IMG/VR virus record: IMGVR_UViG_3300010391_000195
Location: 1 to 38,599 of that record
DNA length: 38,599 nucleotides
Reading direction: 5' to 3' (one strand)
Source: a virus
Part shown: in pieces, positions 3,633-27,117 of the stretch
Numbering within the stretch: position 1 is the first letter of the stretch
Layout: each line of letters begins with the position of its first letter
Position numbers and translations under genes: made by a program
The notes under the pieces: model-generated
The model's input: the letters and a program-made list of their open reading frames with translations, nothing else
Told to the model about the DNA's origin: nothing
Databases searched by the model: none

Positions 3633-5678
3633 TTATCCAAGGTCGAGTCCTCCGGTATCTGCTGGGCCTAAATTTTCGGCGAGCGGGTCGTAGCCCGGCT
3701 CGTCGTTGTCCTGAGACGCTTCGGGCATGACAGGCGGCTGACCCACCGGCGGGGGGCCTTCGGGCATCAGCGGCTTATCGCCTCCGATGTATTTTCTCGC
3801 CCGCTGAATCAAGCTCACGGCGTCGTTTTTACGGACGTGCTGTTCTTCGCGTACCCGAGCGACAAGCTGGTCCATCGGGGCCGAAGGGTCTTGACGCAGG
3901 ACATTCATGGTCTGAAGGACTTTTTCGGTTTCCTGATCGAAGTCCTTGAAGCGCAAGCTCGCGCGGTCAAGTTCCATCGTAAACGGCATCGGTTCTTCGG
4001 CTTCACGCAGTTCAAAGCCGAACCTAACGTATTTTTTGCCCGCGACGGTTTCTCGGCGCTGGCACAAAATATAAGTAGACCCCCATCCGGCCAAGACGCT
4101 TGAGCCCCGGAGCATCTGCGCGCCCTGACGCGGGGCACCGTCGCCCGACGGTTTGTTAAAATGATGCACGAGAATCACCGTTGAAAGCCCGGCGGCTTTG
4201 GCAATATCGTCAAGCGATTTCAAGAACCACGACATCGCCTGCGCGTCGTTCTCGTTGGAAAAATGGTATCGATTCAGCGGATCGATGACCAGCACGTCGA
4301 TTTTCTTGGCCCGTAGCGACCGGATCATGGCCTCTTGAATGTCCCGTTTGGTGATGTTAAAGGCGATATGCTGATACCAGAAATATTCGCCGAGCGTGTT
4401 CCAGTCGATGCCCATAGAATTTGCGATTAGCTCGATGCGGCCCTTGAGCGTGGACTCGCCCGTCTCCGAGGTGCAGATCAAGACGCGACACCGGCGTTGC
4501 ACGGGAAAACGCCTCAGCCACTTGCCGTCGGTCTTGCCCGTGGCAAGCAAAAAGGCCAGTTCCAACTCCACGAGGGATTTGCCGACTTTGGGCTCGCCGC
4601 CGATGACCACTAGAGAGGACAGCGGAATCAAAGGCCGCACCAGCCATTGCACGGGCGGCACGTCGATCAGCCGCGTGATCGGAAAAATCACAAGTTCGTT
4701 GCCCTTGACTATCGAGCGGTTAATTTCCCCGTCGGCGGCGACGCGCCCCGCCGAGAGCGTCTTACGCATATAATTTTCGAGGTTGCCCTTTTTGGCTTCT
4801 TCGAGGGCCTTCTCGCTGATGGCGTATTTGTCGTCGCCGAAGATCGTTTTAATTTGTTCTTCGGTGAAGCCCGCCACGAACAGGTCGCGCATGACGCGAA
4901 AATCAATCGTGGATCGGTCCACGGGACTGCCATCGGTCGGGGCCGGGGCTTCGGCGTAGCCGTTCAGGACGATGTTATAAAGCTCCCAGTTTTCTTTAAT
5001 CAGCCGCTTCATGGCTTCGTCCAGCGGCAACGCCGACGGGGCTTGACCCTCGGGGATTTCCGCGTCTACCGCAAGACGTTCATACCGGACAGTCCCGTCG
5101 AGATACACCAGTTCGCTCTTATGGCCGTCGGGACTTTTCCAGTTGATCGTGCCGGGGAGCCGGAAGACCCGTGCGGGGTCTGATACGCTGTCGCCGCCCA
5201 AGACGCGCTCGACGGTTTCGCACATGAGCTTGACTTCGGTTGGCTGAAGCGGTTTTTGCAAAAACCAATGGGCCTGCGCGTGGCCCGGCGTGCCCGACAG
5301 GATCACCGCGCTCGGCGGCGGCGTGAAAGTTTTCAGGCGTTCCTCGGCGTCGGCGCGGTCGATGTCGACCCACACGTCTTGGCCCTCCCCGACGTGTTCG
5401 TTACGCCCCGCGCCGCGCTCGGCCTTGGTGGCTCGCGGGCAGACGCCGAAGTAGCAGTCGTAGCCCTCTTTGTTAAAATGCTGGACGCGCACGGCGAAGT
5501 GGTCGAAGGTCTGTTCGAGCTTCTCGACCATGATAAATTCGCTGTGAACGCCCCTGCCGCCTTCCATCGTTTCGCGGCGGATAAATCTGAACTCGACCCA
5601 TCCGTGCGGCGAGCAGTTGCGAAAAATCTCCAGCAGGAGACTTTGGGCACTACGAAGCGGGTGGCTTTCCAGCAACAT
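3633..5678 (-). CDS. PrimPol-helicase (AEP primase fused to RepA-like RecA-fold ATPase)
   Basis: 681 residues with two enzymatic modules. Residues 75-215 resemble an archaeo-eukaryotic primase/RepB-type primase: VWVDID at 102-107 carries the metal-binding acidic pair, followed by LSGTPGHAQAHWFLQKPL and DPARVFRLPGTINWK. Residues 340-600 are a RepA/AAA_25-type ATPase with Walker A GGEPKVGKS (360-368), Walker B VLVIDPL (462-468) and a VILVHHFNKPSG sensor. The C-terminus (620-681) is a Pro/Asp-rich tail. The likely job is priming and unwinding at the phage origin, with the RepL-like initiator encoded just upstream. The ATG at 5678 has a GGGGGA SD and overlaps the upstream gene by 29 bp. Confidence 0.88.
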   Translation of the reverse strand: MLLESHPLRSAQSLLLEIFRNCSPHGWVEFRFIRRETMEGGRGVHSEFIMVEKLEQTFDHFAVRVQHFNKEGYDCYFGVCPRATKAERGAGRNEHVGEGQDVWVDIDRADAEERLKTFTPPPSAVILSGTPGHAQAHWFLQKPLQPTEVKLMCETVERVLGGDSVSDPARVFRLPGTINWKSPDGHKSELVYLDGTVRYERLAVDAEIPEGQAPSALPLDEAMKRLIKENWELYNIVLNGYAEAPAPTDGSPVDRSTIDFRVMRDLFVAGFTEEQIKTIFGDDKYAISEKALEEAKKGNLENYMRKTLSAGRVAADGEINRSIVKGNELVIFPITRLIDVPPVQWLVRPLIPLSSLVVIGGEPKVGKSLVELELAFLLATGKTDGKWLRRFPVQRRCRVLICTSETGESTLKGRIELIANSMGIDWNTLGEYFWYQHIAFNITKRDIQEAMIRSLRAKKIDVLVIDPLNRYHFSNENDAQAMSWFLKSLDDIAKAAGLSTVILVHHFNKPSGDGAPRQGAQMLRGSSVLAGWGSTYILCQRRETVAGKKYVRFGFELREAEEPMPFTMELDRASLRFKDFDQETEKVLQTMNVLRQDPSAPMDQLVARVREEQHVRKNDAVSLIQRARKYIGGDKPLMPEGPPPVGQPPVMPEASQDNDEPGYDPLAENLGPADTGGLDLG

Positions 5679-6869: not shown

Positions 6870-6914
6870 AAACGGTTAAGCTGGCTTAACGTGGTTAAGC
6901 TGGCTTAACCGTTT
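6870..6914. repeat. 45-bp double palindrome (two 17-bp direct repeats, each palindromic)
   Basis: GGTTAAGCTGGCTTAAC occurs twice, separated by GT. Each copy contains the palindromic arms GTTAAGC and GCTTAAC around a TG spacer. The pair is flanked by AAAC and CGTTT so that the entire 45 bp is palindromic apart from the two TG spacers and the 3-bp centre. This suggests two adjacent dimeric protein-binding sites or an origin/operator cruciform. It lies upstream of the RepL-like initiator. Confidence 0.8.
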
Positions 6915-10992: not shown

Positions 10993-13900
10993 ATGACCGC
11001 GCTACTTCACGCGCACACGGAATACAGCCACCGCGACAGCTTGATCCGCGTGGGCGAACTCCCAAAACTCGCGCTTGACGCGGGCTACTCGGCCTGCGCC
11101 ATCACGGATCATGGGTCTATTTCCGGGGCGGTAGACTTTCACCGGGCCTGCAAGACCGCCGGAATCAAGCCGATTATCGGCTGTGAGGTTTACGTTCGTG
11201 TCTCCGACGCCGACAAAGACCCCAAGAGCAAGAAATATCACCTGACGGTCCTGACCAAGAGCGCCAAGGGCTTTGGGACGCTGTGCCGCCTCATGGGCGA
11301 CGCGGCTTTTGTCGAAGACGGCAAGAGCGTCCTGCCGCTGGAATCGTTACTGGAAGGGGCCGGGCAAGACATCGTGATCCTGTCGGGGTGTTATTCCAGT
11401 CCGTTTTGGCGCGGGGGCTCCGACGCCTATGCCGATTTCATGAAGTTTCTTAAAGCATACGACGAGGACTTTTTCTTGGAGGTCATGCCGCTATCCGATT
11501 GGGACAAACAGGTCATGCTGAATCGCATGATCGTCGAGCTTGCCCAAACGGTTAATCGCCCGCTGGTCGTCACGGGCGACGCGCATTTCGCGTGCGCCGA
11601 AGATTCCAAGCACCACGACGCGCTTCTAGCGGTCGCCAACCGCAAGAGCATTCTGGACCCGAGCCGCTGGCAGTTTTCGACGAAGCTAAACTGGGTCATG
11701 AACCGCGCCGATACGCTCATGCACCTGTCCAATGCCGGGCTTGAGCTTTCCAAAGCCGCCGAAGCCCTTGATAATACGGCCCTTGTCGAAGAACGGTGCG
11801 AGGCGTGGGAGTTCCCCACGGATCGCCTCCCGATTGCCAGCGTGTCGGAGCATCCCGACGACGAACTCGTCGAGCTTGTGGGCAAGGCCCTCGTAGGACG
11901 AGCCGAAGATTATTACAAGCGCGCCGAGTACGAGCTTGAAACTTTGATTACAGCAGGGCTGTCGGAATATCTGCTTCTGGTGCGTAAGTGCGTTTCGGAA
12001 TTCCGTAAGCGCGGGGCCTTTATCGGCCCCCGAGGATCGGTCGGCGGGTGCCTCGTGGCGCATTTACTCGGCATTTCCAACGTGGACCCGCTCAAGCATG
12101 ACTTGATCTTTGAACGCTGGTATTCGCCGGGGCGCGGAAATATGCCTGACGTCGATCTGGATTTGCCCCACGAGTTTCGCGCCCGCGCACCGGAGATTCT
12201 GGCCGAGGTCTTCGGGGCAAAAAACGTCGCGCAGGTCGGTACAGTCCAGACCTATCAAGTCCGCGCCGCCGTGCGAGACGCCGCAAAAGCATACGCCGTG
12301 GACATGGACGAGACTATCGGCTACGACGCCGCCGACGAAGACGCATGGACCAAAAGCGAAGCCGGATTCTCCGGTCATTCGCTGGCGGTCGCCCTTAAAG
12401 ACCGCTCGCCGGAGGCGTTTTCGTTCGCCGAAAAATTATTTGGCCGAGTCCGTCATGCCGGGGCGCACCCCGGCGGTTTCGTGATCTGCCGCGATCCGAT
12501 CAACCAGATCGGGCGCGGCTTCGTCAAAGACGGCGTGTTGTGCTGGCCGCTGGACGTGGCCGAGTCGCTCGGGTTTCTCAAGATCGACTTTTTGGCAAAC
12601 GGCACCTTGGATATTTTGGCCCAGTTCGACGGCAAGGTAAACTTCGAGGAAATCCCGCTCGACGCCGCCGACGTGTTTTTGGATTTCGAGCAGGGCCGCA
12701 CGGCGGGCATTCCGCAATTTAACAGTTTCGGCATGAAGGCATTTGTCCGAATGCTCAAGCCCCGGAGCTTTTACGACCTGATCTTCGCCAACGCCGCTTT
12801 CAGACCCGGCGGTCTAGGTCAGATGTCTCCGGCCAAGCTCGTTGAAACTTACCGACAAGACCCTGATGCGCTGATTATTTTCCAAGAGCAGCTCATGTCG
12901 ATCTGCGTGAACGCGGCGGGCTTCTCATGGCAGGAGGCCGACGCCGTGCGTAAGACGATGGCAAAATCCGAAGGCGTCGCGGCCATGCGCTCGTGGGAGA
13001 ACAAGTTCGTCCAAGGATGCGTGAAGACCGGCAGTTTCAGCGTTGAAGAAGCCGGTCAAATCTGGACGCAGTTAAGTGGATGGGGCCGGTACGGATTTTG
13101 CAAAAGCCATGCCACGGCGTACACGCAAAACGCCTATCGGTGCGGCTGGCTCAAGCGCAAGTTCCCGTTTGAGTTTTACGCGGCGGCCTTAAATGCCGCC
13201 GGTGAAAAGACCAAGTCCGACGATTCGGTCGCCATTTTGCTCGACGAAATCGAAGACCTCGGACTCCCCGTGCTTCCCGTGGACCTGAATTTGTCGGGTA
13301 ACGCATGGCAGGGCGAAGAAACCGGCCTTCGCAGGCCGTTTTCGGACGTGGCCGGGATGACCAAACCCCTGATAGCCGCCATTATGGCGGAAAGGGGCCT
13401 CAAAGCGATTATAAGTCTCCAAGACCTGTCCGTGCGCCTGAAAAAGAGAAAGCTCCCCGCCGCGCTCGCCGGTGCGCTTGAAAGCAAAGGCAACGAGAGG
13501 CAAATCACGCTATATCGGTCGCCTGCGCTTGATGCGCTAGTGGATGAAACGCGGACGTGTATTCTGTGTGACCGGCGAAAGACGTGCAAGGCCCCTGTTC
13601 CGGTCGATCCGGGGATTTATAACGCCCTTGTTGTCGGCCAAGACCCCGGAGCCGTAGAGGATAGGCGGGGCAAGCCGTTTCAAGGCGAAAGCGGCAAGTT
13701 GCTTATCGGGCTTCTGGACGCCTACGGCATCGACCGAAAGCAGATCGGCTTTTCCAATGTCATTAAGTGCCGTAGCACCGACCCGAACGCCGAAAAGCCG
13801 TACTGCCCGTGGCTGGACAAAGAGCTTGAAATACTCGCGCCGCCGCTGGTTTTGGCGGTCGGGCGCTCGGCATGGGAAGCCCTTGGCGGGAAGGGCTCGA

Positions 13901-14106
13901 TTCTCAAAGCCAACGCGACGGTTTACAAGTCGCCGACGGGCCGACAGGTCGTGGCGTGTATCCACCCTGCCGCTGTATTACGCGATAACGCCCTGTACCC
14001 CGAGTTCGAGCGGGCCGTCAAGAAATTTTCCAAGCTGTTTCACGACGCCGAAAAGCGGGACGAAAAACCGCCCGATTCCGGCGTTCAGCATGACTTGGGT
14101 TTTTAG
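10993..14106 (+). CDS. DnaE-type DNA polymerase III alpha fused to a uracil-DNA glycosylase domain
   Basis: 1037 residues. Residues 1-210 are a PHP domain with metal ligands in HAHTEYS, DHGS, GCEVY and GDAHFA. The polymerase III core follows: GPRGSVGG, the catalytic pair in MPDVDLDLP (near 386-393), HPGGFVICRDP and KIDFLANGTLDIL with the third aspartate, then AAFRPGG and YGFCKSHATAYT. A tail of about 180 residues (856-1030) is a family-4/5-like uracil-DNA glycosylase: Cys cluster CILCDRRKTC, VVGQDPGAVEDRRGKPF, NVIKC...YC and IHPAAVLRDN, with Cys residues placed for an Fe-S cluster. This is the phage replicase. The fused glycosylase may scan for uracil during synthesis. It starts the plus-strand replication block and has no SD. 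Confidence 0.9.
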   Translation: MTALLHAHTEYSHRDSLIRVGELPKLALDAGYSACAITDHGSISGAVDFHRACKTAGIKPIIGCEVYVRVSDADKDPKSKKYHLTVLTKSAKGFGTLCRLMGDAAFVEDGKSVLPLESLLEGAGQDIVILSGCYSSPFWRGGSDAYADFMKFLKAYDEDFFLEVMPLSDWDKQVMLNRMIVELAQTVNRPLVVTGDAHFACAEDSKHHDALLAVANRKSILDPSRWQFSTKLNWVMNRADTLMHLSNAGLELSKAAEALDNTALVEERCEAWEFPTDRLPIASVSEHPDDELVELVGKALVGRAEDYYKRAEYELETLITAGLSEYLLLVRKCVSEFRKRGAFIGPRGSVGGCLVAHLLGISNVDPLKHDLIFERWYSPGRGNMPDVDLDLPHEFRARAPEILAEVFGAKNVAQVGTVQTYQVRAAVRDAAKAYAVDMDETIGYDAADEDAWTKSEAGFSGHSLAVALKDRSPEAFSFAEKLFGRVRHAGAHPGGFVICRDPINQIGRGFVKDGVLCWPLDVAESLGFLKIDFLANGTLDILAQFDGKVNFEEIPLDAADVFLDFEQGRTAGIPQFNSFGMKAFVRMLKPRSFYDLIFANAAFRPGGLGQMSPAKLVETYRQDPDALIIFQEQLMSICVNAAGFSWQEADAVRKTMAKSEGVAAMRSWENKFVQGCVKTGSFSVEEAGQIWTQLSGWGRYGFCKSHATAYTQNAYRCGWLKRKFPFEFYAAALNAAGEKTKSDDSVAILLDEIEDLGLPVLPVDLNLSGNAWQGEETGLRRPFSDVAGMTKPLIAAIMAERGLKAIISLQDLSVRLKKRKLPAALAGALESKGNERQITLYRSPALDALVDETRTCILCDRRKTCKAPVPVDPGIYNALVVGQDPGAVEDRRGKPFQGESGKLLIGLLDAYGIDRKQIGFSNVIKCRSTDPNAEKPYCPWLDKELEILAPPLVLAVGRSAWEALGGKGSILKANATVYKSPTGRQVVACIHPAAVLRDNALYPEFERAVKKFSKLFHDAEKRDEKPPDSGVQHDLGF

Positions 14107-15488: not shown

Positions 15489-16553
15489 ATGGCAAAACGA
15501 GGTCGTCCGCCAAAAAACAAGGCCGCAGACCCGGCGGTGAAGCCCAAGCCAGTCCTCACGATGGTAAAGCTCATCGCCGGGATGCACGCCTACGAGAAAC
15601 CTGTGTGCCTCCGAACGGGGGTTCACGCCATCGACCTTGTGCTGGGGGACGGGGTGCCGAGAGGCCGGTACATCGAGCTTCTCGGCGACCCCGCCACCGC
15701 TAAGAGCGCCTTTGGCTATGCCATTATCGCTACGTTTCAGCGGGCGGGCGGCGTGGCCTTCTTGATCGACCCCGAATCCAAGACCGACCAGTCGTTTGCC
15801 GAAAAGTTCGGTGTAGACTGGTCCAAGCTCGGGTATCCCGGCGGCGACGCGCCCGAAGATATGCTGACGCTGGAAAACATCGTCAAGCTGATCGCTCGAA
15901 TCGCCGACACCGCCGACTCGAAGATACCCACTGTCATCGTTTGGGACAGCATCGCCGCGACTCCCGGCGCGGAGGAACTTGAAGAAGACTTCGATCCCGC
16001 CAAGCCGGAAATGATGAAACGCGCTAGAATCCTGTCGGCGTCGTTTCGATCCGTGATGAACCGGCTTCACCACAAGGGCATCACCCTGATCGGCGTGAAC
16101 CAGCTTCGGCAACAGCTAGTCAGGTCTTTTTCGTTCAAAGAAGCCCCCGGCGGCAGGGCCTTGCGCTATCACGCTTCGGCGCGGCTCATGTTCAGAAAGA
16201 CCGCGATCATTAAAAGCGCCAAGACATCGCTTGTCACCGGCATCGAGCTTGAAATCGAAGCCGTCAAGAACACGCTCGCGCCGCCCTACCGGAAAGCCAA
16301 GATGCGCTTCAAGTTCGATTCGGGCTTCGACACTTACAGCGGCCTGAAAGAATTTCTCGTGCGGCATGGCCGCTTGACGCTCGAAGACGGCCAGATGAAA
16401 TTCGGCAGTTATGCCTTCAAGGACTTCGACTGGAACAAAGTTGTCATGGACCATCCCGAGCTTCTGGCACCGATTCGCGGCGTCGTGGAATCGGTCGTCG
16501 CCGGTAGCGGGGGAGAGATCGTTGCGGGGGAGGCAGAGACGCAAGAAAACTAG
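15489..16553 (+). CDS. RecA/UvsX-like recombinase with variant Walker A
   Basis: 354 residues. The ATPase core has the P-loop GDPATAKS at 66-73, Walker B TVIVWDSIAA near 148-157 and the ITLIGVNQLRQQL segment of RecA-type proteins (loop L1/L2 region). The P-loop departs from the usual GxxxxGK[ST]: the glycine before lysine is alanine. The N-terminus is short and basic (MAKRGRPPKNKAAD). Expected role: strand invasion in recombination-dependent replication with the SSB, helicase and SbcCD-like proteins. The ATG lies 4 bp after the SSB stop. Confidence 0.85.
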   Translation: MAKRGRPPKNKAADPAVKPKPVLTMVKLIAGMHAYEKPVCLRTGVHAIDLVLGDGVPRGRYIELLGDPATAKSAFGYAIIATFQRAGGVAFLIDPESKTDQSFAEKFGVDWSKLGYPGGDAPEDMLTLENIVKLIARIADTADSKIPTVIVWDSIAATPGAEELEEDFDPAKPEMMKRARILSASFRSVMNRLHHKGITLIGVNQLRQQLVRSFSFKEAPGGRALRYHASARLMFRKTAIIKSAKTSLVTGIELEIEAVKNTLAPPYRKAKMRFKFDSGFDTYSGLKEFLVRHGRLTLEDGQMKFGSYAFKDFDWNKVVMDHPELLAPIRGVVESVVAGSGGEIVAGEAETQEN

Positions 16554-25952: not shown

Positions 25953-26227
25953 CGCTTGACGAACATGGCTTCGTGACGCATCGCGTGTTATCAGACGGTC
26001 GGATAGCGGCGGTCGTGCCGCTGATCTTCGGTGGCCGCATCTGCGTCGGGCGCGGCTACGAGAGCTACGAGCATGGATACTGATATGAGTCCATCGACGC
26101 GGCGGTCGCCGCCATGACCGCATGGAAGCCCGAGGTCGATCCCGAGCCGGTCGGCTGGCATCGTGAAACCAGAACCGCCCGCCGCCGTCCCAATGGCGAT
26201 CCGGCTCAAGAATACATCGAGCCCTAG
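25949..26227 (+). pseudogene. conserved small phage protein interrupted by in-frame TGA
   Basis: A GTG start overlaps the nuclease stop (GTGA). The frame reads VTLDEHGFVTHRVLSDG...AVVPLIFGGRICVGRGYESYEHGY, then TGA at 26081-26083 (codon 45), then YESIDAAVAAMTAWKPEVDPEPVGWHRETRTARRRPNGDPAQEYIEP. The post-TGA part (A-A-x-A-A-x-x-x-W ... G-W-x-R ... R-R-x-P-x-G-D-P-x-x-E-Y-I) is the conserved half of a known phage family. From memory, that family has an aromatic/Cys W-C-Y at the TGA position. So a single-base change (e.g. TGC or TGG to TGA), an assembly error, or readthrough explains it. Confidence 0.6.
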
Positions 26228-26634
26228 TCGTCGTAGAACATCTGGCGGGGCAAATGCTCGCGGGCGCTCTGGCCGAGATACCGGACAAGCCGCATATCAT
26301 GGCTCGCAAGGGCCTCGTCGATCTGCGAGGCCAGAATCGCCGGAAGCATCGACTTGAGTTCTGCCAGTTCCAGCTTCGCTATTTCACGGGCCATCAGGTT
26401 GCTCTCGTGTTCCGTCAAGCTCACCCGTAGGACCGGGACGGTCGAGTCCAGAGCGCCCTTCGTGTGCTTGCGCTCGTGCTTGCGATACCTGTTTTTGAAC
26501 TTGACGACGCGAAGCGCCGTGCGAGGCCCTTCGTTGCCGTGCTTTTTGGCTTCTGCCTCGGCGACCGCCGCGACTTGTTTCAGTTCGTCGTTAAGCTGAC
26601 GAATGTAATTATCGCGCATTTTGATTTGACTCAT
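26224..26634 (-). CDS. hypothetical helical protein downstream of structured RNA-like region
   Basis: 136 residues, charged and helical: LNDELKQVAAVAEAEAKKHG, a basic segment FKNRYRKHERKHTKG, LRVSLTEHESNLMAREIAKLELAELKSML and IDEALASHDMRLVRYLG. Not recognised. Its TAG overlaps the convergent neighbour's TAG (CTAG). The ATG at 26634 has no SD, and the 3' arm of a 13-bp helix closing a 218-nt structured region ends one base before it, so translation may depend on that structure. A downstream in-frame ATG (MRDNYIRQL) is an alternative start. Confidence 0.6.
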   Translation of the reverse strand: MSQIKMRDNYIRQLNDELKQVAAVAEAEAKKHGNEGPRTALRVVKFKNRYRKHERKHTKGALDSTVPVLRVSLTEHESNLMAREIAKLELAELKSMLPAILASQIDEALASHDMRLVRYLGQSAREHLPRQMFYDD

Positions 26635-26635
26635 G

Positions 26636-26853
26636 GCTGGCGCGGTGTGCCGCCCGAAGGCGGCAAGCCGTCATCCGCACGAGCCGGGCCGTCCGCTTTC
26701 ATGAAGCGGCCAATCTCCCGGCTGGCTGACCGTCAACGTGGTCTTTCCCGGTCAATCATCGGATTACCGCTACGGTTACGCCAAGCGGCATTTACGGGTC
26801 CAAATACGTCTGGACACCGTGCGGGCAAACCCCCGCATGGACACCGCGCCAGC
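26636..26853 (-). ncRNA. candidate structured RNA closed by a 13-bp helix
   Basis: GCTGGCGCGGTGT (26636-26648) and ACACCGCGCCAGC (26841-26853) pair perfectly. Inside on the minus strand are further perfect stems: TGCGGG/CCCGCA, GTCCA/TGGAC, a nested GCCGGG(CCGCTT-AAGCGG)CCCGGC at 26683-26722, and GCCGCC-TTCG-GGCGGC with a UUCG loop at about 26650-26665. No gene fits this stretch. The strand is inferred from flanking minus-strand genes; the structure itself is nearly strand-symmetric. It could be a leader RNA, a free RNA, or a small inverted-repeat element (no target duplication seen). Confidence 0.5.
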
Positions 26854-26864
26854 GACAAGTCAAA

Positions 26865-27083
26865 TTACTTCTTGGCGGCGGCTTTGCCCAAGAACCATTC
26901 GGCGTTGCGGTGCCGCGCCGGGGGTAGCACTTTGCCCTCGTGTTGGAGCTTGTCCCACGTCGTCATGCCGAGCATAATCAGCCGTAGGACCGTCTGGTAA
27001 CACGAGTTGCAAAGCCCCCGGCGAACCGCCTCGCGTCCGCAATCGGGCTTGAGACAAGACGCCTTGTTTTTGGTTTCGGTCAT
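26865..27083 (-). CDS. small zinc-finger protein (CxxxxC...RGLCNSCY)
   Basis: 72 residues: SCLKPDCGREAVRRGLCNSCYQTVLRLIMLGMTTWDKLQHEGKVLPP. The C-x4-C-x9-C-x2-C set resembles the zinc modules found in small phage DNA-binding proteins and homing-endonuclease accessory domains. The transcript start predicted from the consensus promoter at 27090-27117 falls at or next to the ATG, and there is no SD at normal spacing, so translation may be leaderless. Confidence 0.7.
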   Translation of the reverse strand: MTETKNKASCLKPDCGREAVRRGLCNSCYQTVLRLIMLGMTTWDKLQHEGKVLPPARHRNAEWFLGKAAAKK

Positions 27084-27089
27084 GGTTTT

Positions 27090-27117
27090 AGTGTATCATC
27101 CTTTTCTTGCGTGTCAA
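27090..27117 (-). promoter_or_regulatory. sigma70 promoter TTGACA-16-TACACT
   Basis: A perfect -35 (TTGACA) and a 4/6 -10 (TACACT) are 16 bases apart, overlapping the end of the gene that stops at 27114. The -10 ends six bases before the ATG at 27083. This is the best sigma70 match seen in the window. Confidence 0.6.

Follow-up and report, generated by a model that had tools for sequence, protein, structure and literature searches.

The window, that is, the whole stretch of 38,599 bases analysed here, comes from an uncharacterised large DNA phage with a replication module. This module lies on the plus strand and comprises a DnaE fused to a uracil-DNA-glycosylase-superfamily domain, a gp32-like protein, RecA, and SbcD-like and SbcC-like proteins; the minus-strand genes are small genes and a DNA ligase. 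Among these minus-strand genes sits the structured element, a 230-base non-coding stretch between a gene for 72 amino acids (aa) and a gene for 136 aa (Table 1). Neither protein matches a known family, and no flanking gene shows a metabolic or transport function. The AlphaFold model of the 136-aa protein is poor (pLDDT 56).

A candidate sigma-70-type promoter lies directly upstream of the 72-aa gene, and a single transcript starting there would therefore carry both genes and the spacer between them. Its predicted start falls at, or a base or two from, the ATG of the 72-aa gene (27083). This arrangement (27083–27117, minus strand) suggests that the 72-aa message is leaderless.

Table 1. Positions of the element, its flanking features and the recA 5′ regions (window coordinates unless another locus is named)
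Feature	Position	Strand	Basis or remark
Candidate sigma-70-type promoter, TTGACA-N16-TACACT, TG before second hexamer	27090..27117	−	Consensus scan, 10/12 matches
Upstream gene, 72 aa, four-cysteine zinc-ribbon-like small protein	26865..27083	−	ORF and codon-usage signal
Outer closing helix, 5′ arm	26855..26865	−	11 pairs, two G·U
Inner closing helix, 5′ arm	26841..26853	−	13 perfect pairs; mismatch 26854/26635 divides inner from outer
Hairpin P2, GCGGG/CCCGC	26821..26836	−	MFE fold
Hairpin P3	26794..26820	−	MFE fold; its GGUGUCCA repeats the closing-helix 5′ arm
Hairpin P4	26765..26790	−	MFE fold
Branched domain P5, nested GCCGGG/CCCGGC and CCGCUU/AAGCGG stems	26673..26764	−	MFE fold
Hairpin P6, GCCGCC-UUCG-GGCGGC	26649..26664	−	MFE fold; cUUCGg tetraloop on minus strand
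Inner closing helix, 3′ arm	26636..26648	−	
Outer closing helix, 3′ arm	26624..26634	−	Holds AUG of 136-aa gene (26634–26632)
Downstream gene, 136 aa, no Shine–Dalgarno sequence	26224..26634	−	ORF, codon signal, orthologues in L100 and L114
recA 5′ region, window	15489..15900	+	
recA 5′ region, L011	3413..3800		
recA 5′ region, L100	7945..8300		
recA 5′ region, L114	8135..8500		

The closing helix and the interior

The core of the closing helix, already noted in a preliminary description of this DNA, is a pair of 13-base arms that are perfectly complementary and have an outer span of 218 nt. No longer perfect inverted repeat with arms within 400 nt of each other exists in the window; the next in length have 12 bp. 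The same description placed the end of the helix one base before an ATG, which is correct for these inner 13 bp, one base from 26634, but pairing continues past the ATG. Beyond a single C·C mismatch (26635/26854), an outer helix adds 11 bp, two of them G·U on the minus strand, so that the complete closing helix has 24 standard pairs over 25 positions. It extends from the last base of the UAA stop codon of the 72-aa gene (26867–26865), which forms the outermost pair, to codon 4 of the 136-aa gene, with the annotated start codon of the latter (AUG1) inside. AUG1 is held by an A–U, a U·G and a G·U pair; on the plus strand, both wobble positions become A·C mismatches. A second in-frame AUG (AUG2, 26619) lies 4 nt past the helix. 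The 136-aa gene does lack a Shine–Dalgarno sequence, as first described, while several neighbouring genes carry one. In a 500-nt context, the pair probabilities of the closing helix are approximately 1.

The helix loops out approximately 190 nt of branched RNA (P2–P6). All of the interior stems picked out earlier, the CCGCTT/AAGCGG stem nested in GCCGGG/CCCGGC and the GCCGCC-UUCG-GGCGGC hairpin, are present and belong to the minus-strand minimum free energy (MFE) structure. P3 contains a copy of the closing-helix 5′ arm, giving a 12-nt direct repeat (26811–26822 and 26838–26849).

Fold statistics, strand and identity

Folding of the minus strand, one of the checks proposed in the preliminary description, gave more structure than chance: the 251-nt RNA has an MFE of −129.8 kcal/mol, compared with a mean of −97.3 kcal/mol for its shuffles (z −6.4), and none of 200 shuffles folded as well. 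Among all 251-nt segments of both strands, the element is the GC-corrected minimum, 4.5–4.8 sd below the trend. The closing helix alone is less exceptional. When the whole window was dinucleotide-shuffled 150 times, helices spanning 120–420 nt with a score of at least 21 appeared twice, and in 1.8 Mb of related loci, where only 12 helices score at least 18, two others with z of about −6 lie inside genes (of the related phages L103 and L106); the significance of the helix by itself is thus no better than about the percent level. These equally good helices are what speaks for a structure that is neutral or due to chance in a spacer rich in GC, which we nevertheless regard as very improbable, given that no other fold and no other long-span helix of the contig is as good and that the element exactly fills the gap from stop to start, in a neighbourhood where the gaps between genes are short.

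Other structures were seen in the same scans. The top-scoring helix of the plus strand is a 21-bp hairpin (G·U allowed) in an AT-richer stretch at 6870–6914, and its second-best is a 20-bp helix (G·U allowed) between 576–595 and 940–959, with a span of 384 nt, which overlaps an ORF at 438–884. Separately, the 5′ coding part of recA (first 300–400 nt) folds better than synonymous-codon shuffles in the window and in the related loci L011, L100 and L114, with z of about −2 to −4.7 in most positions across the four loci; a search for a consensus fold common to these four regions found none (best z −1.7).

Which strand carries the structure is not decided by energies, because folds are strong on both strands and as both RNA and DNA. 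The 251-nt plus-strand RNA has an MFE of −131.5 kcal/mol (z −8.4), again unmatched by any of 200 shuffles, and folding as single-stranded DNA gives z −6.4 and −7.2 for the two strands. Without the closing helix, the interior departs only modestly from shuffles on the minus strand (z −2.3) and more clearly on the plus strand (z −4.5). The operon setting, the promoter, the G·U pairs on the AUG and the UUCG loop favour the minus strand, whereas the interior fold alone favours the plus strand; the wobble pairs on the AUG, which form only on the minus strand, are a small argument for a minus-strand RNA. The element most likely resides in a minus-strand mRNA, with its function a matter of inference.

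The plus-strand values, as good as or better than those of the minus strand for the whole element and for the interior, together with the strong single-stranded DNA folding, are what an element acting at the DNA level or as a plus-strand RNA can claim, either as an inserted inverted repeat (a MITE-like relic, a single-strand initiation site or a protein-binding site) or as a transcript of that strand. We consider this unlikely: no promoter-like site directly precedes the element on the plus strand, its ends lack a target-site duplication, and no second copy occurs in the window or in 50,697 phage and 72,556 plasmid records, BLAST against which returned only chance matches of 31–43 nt. Nor does any viral contig of IMG/VR carry both exact closing arms. 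Despite the inverted repeat, a MITE or a transposon end pair, the latter an alternative named in the preliminary description, was thus not found.

The other alternative listed there, a decayed gene, was likewise not found. No frame shows a sustained codon-usage signal across 26636–26864, and the flanking genes read as coding in the expected frames; a 178-aa ORF overlapping the element on the plus strand scores −0.03 bits per codon, compared with 0.36 for dnaE. The fold statistics, the lack of coding signal and the exact stop-to-start fit all support the original view of a structured, non-coding, RNA-like element. We conclude that the element is genuine, well bounded, structured, non-coding and lineage specific.

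As anticipated, it matches none of the RNA classes of Rfam 15: the whole window has 0 matches at the gathering threshold, and only noise appears up to an E value of 5, the best sub-threshold scores being 13–15 bits against cut-offs of 36–40. The element resembles the structured RNAs of phages and bacteria in Rfam, such as GOLLD, ROOL and riboswitches, in being a branched non-coding RNA outside genes; it differs in matching no covariance model, in being smaller and in not being conserved. GOLLD, ROOL and OLE are large ornate bacterial RNAs (PMC12286853).

The label ‘riboswitch-like’ found no specific support, as the element contains neither a known aptamer nor an expression-platform terminator; no intrinsic terminator (GC hairpin followed by a T run) was found within it. 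A riboswitch, or another leader of the 136-aa gene that senses a ligand or a protein (for example, one through which one of the two small proteins regulates its own expression), could draw on the multi-branch fold that buries the start codon and on the internal 12-nt repeat of the closing arm, which could allow alternative pairing. We find it highly doubtful in view of the Rfam result, in which no aptamer reaches the gathering score and none is convincing up to E 5, the flanking genes, which show no sign of a role in metabolism or transport, and the lack of relatives with a conserved core.

Relatives of the window

The flanking proteins had no BLAST or pattern matches in viral contigs and phage records, a search with DnaE only gave no relative, and a scan of genome contigs with DnaE returned matches of approximately 30% identity, mostly in bacterial chromosomes, with no close relative. 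Alignments of DnaE and SbcC identified the relatives L011, L100 and L114, with 39–49% identity in the best segments and a conserved gene order. L100 and L114 are the two closest found, at approximately 40% protein identity.

The DnaE genes show two further features. That of the window (10993–14106, plus strand) encodes a DNA polymerase III alpha subunit with the uracil-DNA-glycosylase-superfamily domain fused at its C terminus, and the alignments of L011, L100 and L114 also extend into this domain. The DnaE of L100 has an intein-like insert (approximately 4170–5240) inside the conserved GRY.F..KSHAT motif, starting with Cys and ending in HN before Ser; the two halves of the protein align to the DnaE of the window on either side of it.

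Both closest relatives have an orthologue of the 136-aa gene, in L100 at 13478–13861 (E 6.7e-4) and in L114 at 12036–12413 on the minus strand (profile E 1e-10), and in both, as also in the window, it is arranged convergently with a plus-strand gene. In L100, a small upstream ORF stops 16 nt ahead of the orthologue start, with AAGGGGG between them; in L114, a gap of approximately 60 nt precedes the orthologue, with AGGAAGGAG before the start. Both thus have an ordinary short leader with a Shine–Dalgarno sequence and no room for the element. Searches by BLAST, by pattern and by covariance model gave no homologue of the element, a single-sequence covariance model detecting none in related loci or whole records. 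A helix scan that, of the three relatives, took in L100 and L011 also found none. The long helices of L103 and L106 were rejected as relatives because they lie inside genes, and that of L063 because it is a plain long hairpin. As an observation on the 136-aa family itself, which is conserved beside the convergent plus-strand gene, there is a vague likeness between the L114 member and sigma-70 region 2 (EDIRQEAAVGALLAE); this is an impression only, and Pfam and PHROGs gave nothing to support it.

Because L100 and L114 carry the orthologue with an ordinary leader and without the element, the element appears to be specific to the lineage of the window. On these comparisons, it was presumably either gained there, or replaced an ordinary leader there, or else was lost in both L100 and L114. 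Its absence from the orthologous position makes it look inserted or newly arisen, a point in favour of the DNA-level or plus-strand element considered above.

Proposed translational coupling and its alternatives

The best explanation, which we hold tentatively, is that of a lineage-specific structured spacer in the minus-strand operon transcript, controlling the 136-aa gene in cis by translational coupling. The 24-bp helix would bring the 72-aa stop codon and the 136-aa start together, looping out the branched RNA, and the AUG, which has no Shine–Dalgarno sequence, would lie hidden within the 11 bp of the outer helix. On terminating at the UAA, a ribosome would cover the 5′ arm, melt the outer helix and thereby expose the AUG, which would be only a few nucleotides away in space; the 136-aa protein would then be made mainly when the 72-aa gene is translated. 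We infer transcription, the use of AUG1 and the coupling itself.

Several lines of evidence count for coupling. The ends of the helix coincide with the stop and start codons, and its pairs are predicted to form with near certainty. The start has no Shine–Dalgarno sequence, unlike those of several neighbouring genes and of both orthologues; the spacer is non-coding between two coding genes; and the two G·U pairs fall on the AUG itself and form only on the minus strand. In silico, AUG1 is unpaired in 2% of the free transcript and in 28–42% when the 5′ arm is blocked by a terminating ribosome, and a ribosome 45 nt upstream leaves its exposure unchanged, a predicted pattern of the kind expected for coupling. 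The model depends on AUG1 being used. AUG2 is approximately 87% unpaired in the free fold and open in all states examined in silico, so that a true start at AUG2 would leave nothing to mask. Also counting against coupling are the more unusual interior fold of the plus strand and the absence of the element from both relatives, which leaves neither covariation nor any sign that it has been conserved over the long term.

Phage MS2 is an established case of coupling by way of a structure that translation of the upstream gene opens (PMC9894550). As in the coat–replicase coupling of MS2 and other RNA phages, a start codon here lies in a long-range structure and would be exposed by translation of the upstream gene (PMC9894550). 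The differences from MS2 are that this phage has a DNA genome, that the helix begins with the stop codon of the upstream gene and not within that gene, that its loop holds approximately 190 nt of branched non-coding RNA, and that the coupling is predicted in silico. Coupled genes without a Shine–Dalgarno sequence are known from RNA phage GA (PMC9955659). If coupling holds, a DNA phage would tie together two distant reading frames through a long looped-out RNA, without a Shine–Dalgarno sequence.

Masking of the start codon needs only the outer helix, so the coupling model leaves the branched interior unexplained, and this is the main reason to keep a second reading in which the RNA itself is the product. 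RNase III processing stalks flank pre-16S and pre-23S rRNA, and RNase III sites occur between phage early genes. Here, the 24-bp helix would be such a stalk, releasing a stable branched RNA of approximately 200 nt and separating the messages of the two genes. The element shares with these stalks a near-perfect helix of about two turns that closes a structured RNA in a polycistronic transcript; its high pair probabilities, the cUUCGg hairpin in its branched interior and its location between two genes behind a good candidate promoter also fit a released RNA. We nonetheless judge this somewhat unlikely, as the interior exceeds its shuffles in stability only modestly on the minus strand (z −2.3), neither a homologue nor a conserved core was found and, unlike in the rRNA stalks, no known RNA lies inside and cleavage is hypothetical. 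If the RNA is released, it would be a new phage RNA; at present, it is a well-delimited candidate from a single sequence. That the operon spacer combines both roles, with the closing helix setting the stop codon beside a start without a Shine–Dalgarno sequence and RNase III releasing the structured RNA, we take to be improbable.

The layout also recalls the ribosome-shunt leader of the CaMV type, with its short ORF stopping at the foot of a long stem and a start codon soon after the stem. That mechanism is eukaryotic and we see no evidence of shunting here, but the geometry is alike: the 72-aa ORF ends at the stem base, with the next start just past the stem.
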